NCBI GenBank assembly: GCA_013204185.1
Contig: JABMOI010000082.1
Coordinates: forward strand, 1-48,150
Length of the DNA: 48,150 bases
DNA from: a bacterium
GTDB lineage: Bacteria > Bacteroidota > Rhodothermia > Rhodothermales > UBA10348
Direction of reading: 5' to 3'
Position numbers and translations under genes: made by a program. Positions 38,461 through 40,394 of this stretch are shown piece after piece. Position 1 is the stretch's first letter, and each line of letters opens with the position of its first letter. The notes under the pieces are model-generated. The model did no database searches. It was not told the origin of the DNA and worked only from the letters and a program-made list of their open reading frames with translations.

Positions 38461-39375
38461 TCAGGTTTTAATCGCAGATATGACGTTGGCAGCGGCATCC
38501 GTTCCGTCTACATCTATCCAGGTCGCGGACTTATAACGACCGTACCACGTCAACTGCCTTTTGGCATATCGACGCGAATTCCTCTTCATCAGCTCAATGG
38601 CATCTCTCAGCGAGATCTCTCCTTTTAAATGAGGGACCAGCTCTTGGTAACCAATGGTTTTAAGGGAATTGAAGTCGTTTTGGGCGTTTTCCCTGTAGAT
38701 TCGCGACACTTCTTCCAACAGCCCTTCCCTAACCATTTCGTCTACGCGTTGGTCGATACGCTTGTATAGCTCTGAACGCTCCCGAAAAAGGACGAAGAGC
38801 CTAAAGTCAAAGTTGGAAAGGGGAGGAGGGGCATGGAAGCTTGAAAGTGGGTGTCCCGTTCCATTGAAAACCTCAAGTCCTCTAATAATGCGCTGACTCT
38901 TTGTTGCGTCCAGCGTGGCTGCAAAAGTGGGATCCACTTGAAGTAGTTCGCGATACATTTCACCCGGACCTTCGCGCTCAAGCCTAGCATTCAGCTCAAG
39001 CCGAATAGATTCTTTAACCTTTGGAATGTCAGAAAGTCCTTCAATTAGCGCGTGCACGTAAAGAGTAGAGCCACCCGTTACAACTGCTCCCATGTTTCGA
39101 TTTTGAAGATCTTCGACGATGGGTTCAACTCGATTCGCAAACATTCCTGCTGAATACGGCTCCGATAGGTCTATTTCTTGAATCAGATGATGAGGCACAG
39201 ATGCCAATTCTGCGGCCGTTGGCGCAGCCGTTACGATGCCGAAGTCTCGATAAATCTGGCGGCTATCCGCTGATATGATCTCCGCGTTCATCTCCTTAGC
39301 GACACGAAGGCTCGTACTCGTTTTTCCAACCGCAGTTGGCCCGGCTATGATGGGAATAATGGGGCGCATGGCCAT
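38461..39375 (-). CDS. miaA: tRNA dimethylallyltransferase
   Basis: IIAGPTAVGKTSTSLRVAKEMNAEIISADSRQIYRDF, TGGSTLYVHALIEGL, KRNSRRYAKRQLTWYG. Confidence 0.96.
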   Translation of the reverse strand: MAMRPIIPIIAGPTAVGKTSTSLRVAKEMNAEIISADSRQIYRDFGIVTAAPTAAELASVPHHLIQEIDLSEPYSAGMFANRVEPIVEDLQNRNMGAVVTGGSTLYVHALIEGLSDIPKVKESIRLELNARLEREGPGEMYRELLQVDPTFAATLDATKSQRIIRGLEVFNGTGHPLSSFHAPPPLSNFDFRLFVLFRERSELYKRIDQRVDEMVREGLLEEVSRIYRENAQNDFNSLKTIGYQELVPHLKGEISLRDAIELMKRNSRRYAKRQLTWYGRYKSATWIDVDGTDAAANVISAIKT

Positions 39376-39376
39376 G

Positions 39377-40318
39377 TCAGTCCTTTTTCAAGTCAAGATT
39401 GATGTAGTCTGCTGCGCTATCTCTTAGCCTGTCACGTTGATGGACATAGACCATGGTGGTTTCAATCTGTTTATGACGGGCATGGCTTTGGACCTGCTGA
39501 ATGGACGCTCCGGCCTCGATAGCCAGCGTACAGCCCGTGTGACGCAGCGTATGGGCGCCAATTTCCGGTAGACCGGCAACCAGCGCCGCTCCGCGGACAA
39601 TCCTATAGATACTGGTTGGGGTTAATCTGCCGCCAAGATTTCGTCTAGAAAGAGACCTCCAAAGAGGCCCAGAGGCTATTCCATAAGCCTCTTTATGTAC
39701 TTCAATGGCTTCAACCACGTGCTCAGGGATTTTCACGTATTGATCTGCGCCGCCTTTTGTGTAAGGCAAATCCAAGATCCAGTATTTACCCAAAGGACGA
39801 ATATGTTCGACATCCATGGATGCTACTTCGCTACGCCTAAGTACACAATGCAGCATGGTGAGCATCATGGCATGGTTTCGAACACTCTGCTCAGCAGCCG
39901 AATTCAAGAGTCTGTTTGCTTGGTCCGAAGTCAAAACGATCAAAACCCGATCCTTTGTCCGGACAGACTTGATCCGCCGAATGAGTTGCCTGTGGGCCGG
40001 ATTGTTTTCAATTACACCCAACGCGTGAAGCCAATCATAAAATCCACGAATGGCTGCAACACGCCGTCTGATGGTTGATGATTTGGATCCGGCTGCTTCA
40101 AGCGCTGCGATATACTTATTAACAGCAACAAAGGAAACGGATTTTGCTTCGACAAGAGAAACATCCTCAGAACCAAAAAAATCGACGAGGTCTGTTCGAT
40201 AAGCTCGCCGAGTCGAGGGTCTATCGAACTTTAACAGATACGTTTCAATTAGCCGCTCGGAGGTAACGTTTCCGGGGAGAGCCTCAGTTATTGAAACAAC
40301 AAATCGTTTTTCAGACAT
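39377..40318 (-). CDS. Tyrosine recombinase (XerC/XerD/XerS type)
   Basis: Catalytic set in order: LRRSEVASM (R), YTKGG (K), HTLRHTGCT (HxxR), HARHKQIETTMVYVH (H and Y); N-terminal SAM-like core-binding domain. Confidence 0.93.
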   Translation of the reverse strand: MSEKRFVVSITEALPGNVTSERLIETYLLKFDRPSTRRAYRTDLVDFFGSEDVSLVEAKSVSFVAVNKYIAALEAAGSKSSTIRRRVAAIRGFYDWLHALGVIENNPAHRQLIRRIKSVRTKDRVLIVLTSDQANRLLNSAAEQSVRNHAMMLTMLHCVLRRSEVASMDVEHIRPLGKYWILDLPYTKGGADQYVKIPEHVVEAIEVHKEAYGIASGPLWRSLSRRNLGGRLTPTSIYRIVRGAALVAGLPEIGAHTLRHTGCTLAIEAGASIQQVQSHARHKQIETTMVYVHQRDRLRDSAADYINLDLKKD

Positions 40319-40362: not shown

Positions 40363-40394
40363 TAATGTACGATAACTAGTATTATCATACATAA
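40363..40394. other. Candidate dif-like tyrosine-recombinase core site
   Basis: TAATGTACGATAA-CTAGTA-TTATCATACATAA; arms match 11/13 as inverted repeats around a 6-bp centre, inner ATAA/TTAT as in dif. Confidence 0.55.

Follow-up and report, generated by a model that had tools for sequence, protein, structure and literature searches.

The XerCD/dif system is usually regarded as near-universal, vertically inherited core machinery. Systems that work with one recombinase have also been described. In Streptococcus and Lactococcus the single recombinase XerS has a gene-linked site, difSL, of 31 bp with an 11 bp centre (PMC5357621), which is located at the terminus. The XerH/difH system of Helicobacter and Campylobacter likewise has one recombinase, of 354–362 aa, and a linked site, and it is FtsK-dependent (PMC5357621). 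The archaeal XerA/dif system is FtsK-independent and combines one recombinase with a palindromic 11-6-11 site that is sometimes linked to its gene (PMC5357621). In the Legionellales, a group thought to lack dif/Xer, the divergent single recombinase XerL and its terminus-located palindrome have been experimentally tested (PMC9765430). For the Bacteroidetes, Kono et al. 2011 gave dif predictions for 19 members (PMC3025954). No published dif/Xer description was found for Salinibacter or Rhodothermus in the open-access literature.

Here we investigate a dif-like site and the neighbouring recombinase gene, T1, in a Rhodothermales MAG, a 3.44 Mb genome in 271 contigs. The window, the whole stretch of DNA that was analysed, is 48,150 nucleotides long. 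An earlier sequence-only reading of it had proposed a candidate single-recombinase module for chromosome dimer resolution. This proposal is now supported by terminus location in relatives, by conservation and by the absence of XerD, while recombination itself is inferred. With a probability of roughly 0.92, we take the 28 bp core of the site to be the chromosomal dif of a single-recombinase Xer system and T1 to be its recombinase. The features concerned are as follows.

38461 to 39375, minus strand: miaA, a downstream neighbour kept in many relatives, which flanks the in-place exchange of T1 with a second recombinase, T3; it starts 1 bp past the end of T1.
39377 to 40318, minus strand: T1 tyrosine recombinase, 313 aa, intact, with the catalytic R-K-H-R-H-Y conserved in the family.
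40363 to 40394, no strand: dif-like site, a 13-6-13 near-palindrome, TAATGTACGATAA-CTAGTA-TTATCATACATAA, resting on its coordinates, single copy and conservation.
40365 to 40375, no strand: left 11 bp half-site ATGTACGATAA, predicted from sequence and arm co-variation to bind one recombinase protomer.
40376 to 40381, no strand: 6 bp centre CTAGTA, the predicted strand-exchange region, from its sequence and its variation between genomes.
40382 to 40392, no strand: right 11 bp half-site TTATCATACAT, from sequence and arm co-variation.

The 13 bp arms, said to match at 11 of 13 positions as inverted repeats around the 6 bp CTAGTA, do so in the sequence, and the distance to the ATG of the recombinase, put at about 45 bp, is 44 bp with the site upstream. 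The 11-6-11 core occupies positions 40365–40392. On its own a palindrome in the window is weak evidence, because eight palindromes of the 13-6-13 form with at least 11 of 13 matches are present, against 0.7 expected under an order-1 Markov model. Four of the eight are perfect and are, by appearance only, G+C-rich terminator hairpins. As several are stronger than the site, palindrome statistics from the window alone were not considered decisive. Across the whole genome the site occurs once at up to 3 mismatches, and it is also single copy in three relatives of one genus (G039, G049 and G058).

T1 orthologues (E below 1e-50) are present in 35 of 61 genomes, comprising that of the window and 60 relatives. 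Conservation of the site upstream of these orthologues, on which the sequence-only reading could be tested, is borne out: among the distinct genomes whose upstream sequence could be used, 25 have GATAA-N6-TTATC near T1. One genome has a one-mismatch version (G010) and in another the site is degenerate (G012); in G028/G052 neither GATAA-N6-TTATC nor any other palindrome could be recognised in the neighbourhood of the T1-like gene. The length of the centre is conserved at 6 bp, and its sequence differs from one genome to another, unlike the inner arms, which stay the same. At the six positions next to the GATAA box, palindromic matches average 4.24 within a site and 2.84 after the arms of different sites have been shuffled (p ~1e-4, with the relatedness of the sequences uncorrected). 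This co-variation of the arms suggests that one protein binds both half-sites, although there are no binding data.

Where on the chromosome does the locus lie? The switch from plus- to minus-strand genes that had been noticed in the window is present, with a local skew change near 38–40 kb, but as a sign of the terminus it is confounded by gene strand, and the GC skew of the window contig was for the same reason set aside. The genome itself is too fragmented for its skew to be followed. Skew was instead sampled at 20 × 20 kb, with a resolution of 135–240 kb, in four relatives from four families. T1 is at sample index 19.8 in G036, 14.5 in G032, 10.6 in G038 and 15.2 in G049, and the best-fit switch from positive to negative skew falls at 19–20, 14–15, 10–11 and 14–15, respectively; in G049 the sample immediately preceding T1, number 15, has a slightly negative skew. 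In all four the locus of T1 and its site is in or beside the sampling interval of the switch, and the skew test named in the sequence-only reading did not refute it. G034 and G058 likewise show a drop in local flanking skew from one side of the site to the other. In G037, G046 and G056 the local skew was too flat to be informative. The orientation of the site relative to the replichores was dropped as evidence, because the terminus reads from positive to negative on both strands.

T1 is assigned to the tyrosine recombinase family by its PF00589 domain and its catalytic hexad, which is kept in 28–30 of 30 aligned sequences. It (P0001) fails the XerC and XerD equivalogs, with 113 bits against a cut-off of 335 and 105 bits against 330. 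The description of T1 as a lone recombinase holds only in that the genome has no XerC or XerD above the curated cut-offs; it encodes six Phage_integrase proteins. One of these is an integron integrase and another is T2, a Xer-like protein with a degenerate catalytic site; the others look mobile or integron-type, although not all were examined. The integron integrase (L001:292-1287, on contig C264) scores 394 bits with TIGR02249 against a cut-off of 265.

The absence extends beyond this genome. XerD (TIGR02225) is above its cut-off in none of the 60 relatives, the best score being 188 against 330, so the presence of XerC and XerD that would have refuted the proposal was not encountered. In the wider class, XerD is above cut-off in 73 of 150 genomes, all of those among the matches listed belonging to families outside the Rhodothermales, and most of the 73 have a second strong match, presumably XerC. 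FtsK-gamma is found in 58 of the 60 relatives, including all 44 of good quality, which means that these bacteria can supply a translocase carrying the activating domain. T1 and its site very probably replace the XerC/XerD pair for separating fused daughter chromosomes throughout the Rhodothermales.

Not all relatives carry T1. In 17 of them a different recombinase, T3, is present, which is ~25% identical to T1. Its site, AACATAA-N6-TTATGTT or more generally AACRTAA-N6-TTATGTT, is present in 16 of the 17 (G007 has a variant), and some T3 sites have perfectly identical half-sites. Only two T1 genomes have a T3-type site: G002, where both genes are present, and G031, in which a T3-type site adjoins an extra recombinase. 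In the family of the window several relatives have T3 in the slot of T1, between fxsA and miaA. In the genus of the window, G003 (L081) retains after T3 the last 31 aa of a T1, with 90% identity to the T1 of the window, and G002 (L047) has after T3 a T1-like gene with a diverged N-terminal part and a nearly identical C-terminal third. On a tree of T2, taken as a vertically inherited marker, the T1/T3 label changes at least four times. In G017 the T3 site is at 311.9 kb, between skews of +0.058 (280–300 kb) and −0.065 (350–370 kb), which places the terminus there only to ~50 kb. From these sequence comparisons, in which T3 comes with its own site in the T1 slot, site and enzyme appear to be swapped together without leaving the terminus. 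At this one locus at least two unrelated enzyme-site pairs appear to have replaced each other, even inside a single genus, with remnants of the lost gene still in place.

Some arrangements are less simple. No T1 or T3 passed the thresholds applied in G033, G035 and G051, all of good quality, which counts against the proposed reading, as do the sites that are degenerate in G012 and unrecognised in G028/G052. The reading frame of T3 in G017 (L085) ends early, without the catalytic tyrosine, possibly through an assembly frameshift. In G038 (L098 region), and also in G048 and G057, a T1-like gene is followed within ~1 kb by a weakly T3-like recombinase, at the terminus. G031 (C184:49836-50810; C230) has, in addition to T1, another T1-like gene and an extra recombinase with its own CATAA-N6-TTATG site directly upstream.

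Could the palindrome merely control the recombinase gene, either as part of its promoter or as an autoregulatory operator, the latter being the alternative that the sequence-only reading had itself raised? The site is just 44 bp from the T1 start codon, dimers bind symmetric operators, and −35/−10-like hexamers seem by eye to flank or overlap the site in several relatives. In the window, however, a consensus scan has promoter-like matches only on the strand opposite T1. An operator also does not explain the spacing: the distance from site to T1 ranges from ~45 bp to ~0.85 kb, the latter across an HNH gene, and an HNH-type ORF separates the site, or a degenerate site, from T1 in six genomes. 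In G040 and G050 the T3-type site and the T3 gene are on different contigs. Between G004 and G024 the 27 bp core ATGTATGATAATAATAGTTATCGTACA is identical but inverted, while the order and orientation of fxsA, T1 and miaA are unchanged. Together with the placement of the locus at the terminus in four families, these observations weaken the operator alternative and make it very unlikely as the whole explanation. A dual role is not excluded, as the apparent overlap of a sigma-70-like promoter with the site in several relatives, read by eye, means that a site serving as dif may also regulate the T1 gene.

The HNH-type endonuclease-like ORFs lie upstream of T1 at L012, L015, L017, L020, L021 and L022; two were Pfam-tested (HNH_3) and the others were assigned by similarity. 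At L012 the ORF is antisense, and the half-site TTATCGTACATTAAG is left beside T1. Between L009 and L010 an identical 27 bp core is flipped between the same neighbours, and the inversion of so short a stretch is unexplained. On the T1 tree there are at least five changes in the orientation of the centre, assigned by eye.

The repeated company of HNH endonuclease-like genes beside the site, the several T1/T3 exchanges and the scores of T1 far below the XerC/XerD cut-offs could also be taken to mean that T1 is the integrase of a mobile element and the palindrome its attachment site. Such an integrase would be hard to reconcile with a single-copy site that has no attL/attR pair, with the lack of cargo, with the fxsA-recombinase-miaA context conserved across the family of the window, and with a terminus location in distant families. 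We give this explanation almost no weight.

A different question, compatible with the site being dif, is whether the synapse contains one protein or two. T2 (L005:1486-2424, on contig C135 of the same genome) adjoins a dihydrolipoamide acyltransferase-like gene. One copy is present in each of the 60 relatives. When 250 genomes of the class were sampled, most Rhodothermales among them had T2, which is nearly confined to the order. In all 30 aligned sequences Arg-148 is replaced by Ser and Arg-247 by Thr (E. coli XerD numbering), yet T2 keeps the integrase domains, the Lys, both His and the Tyr. It could therefore be a non-catalytic partner of T1 or T3, as in XerCD with one dead subunit. Nevertheless, T2 accompanies both T1 and T3 in spite of their different sites, so that by appearance it is not an arm-specific partner, and the nearly identical half-sites, perfect in some T3 sites, fit one enzyme. 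In none of the four genomes sampled for skew does T2 lie at the terminus, although location alone is weak evidence. We consider the two-protein arrangement possible but unlikely. A broader scheme is offered no more than tentatively and is doubtful: XerC/XerD would have been lost early in the Rhodothermales and its place taken by self-contained dif-recombinase cassettes, one supplanting another at the same locus, perhaps with the help of the HNH endonuclease genes beside dif, and T2 would act on whichever enzyme is resident, either regulating it or joining it as a common non-catalytic partner.

If the core is the dif of a single-recombinase system, a course of events can be proposed by analogy. 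An odd number of crossovers would fuse the sister chromosomes. FtsK would translocate the DNA to the terminus and so pair two copies of the site at the septum, where four T1 protomers may bind, one to each near-identical half-site. The conserved tyrosine would then carry strand exchange across the 6 bp centre, and two monomers would be restored. FtsK-driven synapsis and homotetramer exchange over a 6 bp centre are inferred from XerS, XerH and XerL (PMC5357621, PMC9765430). Binding, recombination, FtsK dependence and homotetramer stoichiometry all remain inferences for T1, without biochemical or genetic evidence.

One whole bacterial order appears to have abandoned XerCD for one-enzyme modules. 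The origin of single-recombinase systems and their replacement of XerCD can be tested directly here; T1 and T3 with their sites give biochemists two naturally occurring pairs that are probably orthogonal, and the order-wide pseudo-Xer T2 is a further unexplained conserved gene. As far as the open-access literature shows, what is new is the lineage, the enzyme families, the order-wide absence of XerCD, the conserved pseudo-Xer and the replacement of one module by another in place; the kind of system is already known.

How, then, does the T1 locus stand beside the described systems? The criteria for a single-recombinase dif/Xer system, namely a palindrome with a spacer, location at the terminus (in relatives), a single copy and one intact Xer in the absence of XerC/XerD, are fulfilled, with recombination inferred. 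The T1 locus is like XerS/difSL in its one recombinase, gene-linked site and terminus location. Unlike difSL with its 11 bp centre, the T1 site is 11-6-11 and near symmetric with a conserved 6 bp centre, and T1 fails the NCBIfam XerS equivalog (42 bits against a cut-off of 267). It shares one recombinase and a linked site with XerH/difH; at 313 aa T1 is shorter than XerH, and among solved structures that of XerH (5jjv) is a weak sequence match (E 6e-4). The archaeal system is alike in its one recombinase, its palindromic 11-6-11 site and the occasional gene linkage. The best solved-structure sequence match of T1 is 4a8e, labelled XerC-like, which we take to be Pyrococcus XerA, and a XerA structure, 5hxy (E 2e-9), also ranks near the top. 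T1 fails the NCBIfam XerA equivalog, however (110 bits against a cut-off of 220), and FtsK-gamma is conserved in the relatives, whereas XerA is described as FtsK-independent. XerL/dif is similar in having a divergent single recombinase and a terminus-located palindrome; the catalytic tyrosine of XerL is residue 387, so XerL is longer than T1, and only in the Rhodothermales, as far as found, has an unrelated enzyme with its site taken the place of the resident pair. With XerCD/dif the T1 site has in common the 28 bp 11-6-11 architecture and the presence of FtsK-gamma, and the inner CATAA/TTATG boxes of the T3 sites (AACATAA-N6-TTATGTT) are shared with E. coli dif. It differs from XerCD/dif in that XerD is not above cut-off in the Rhodothermales and that the T1 sites have GATAA/TTATC with symmetric arms.
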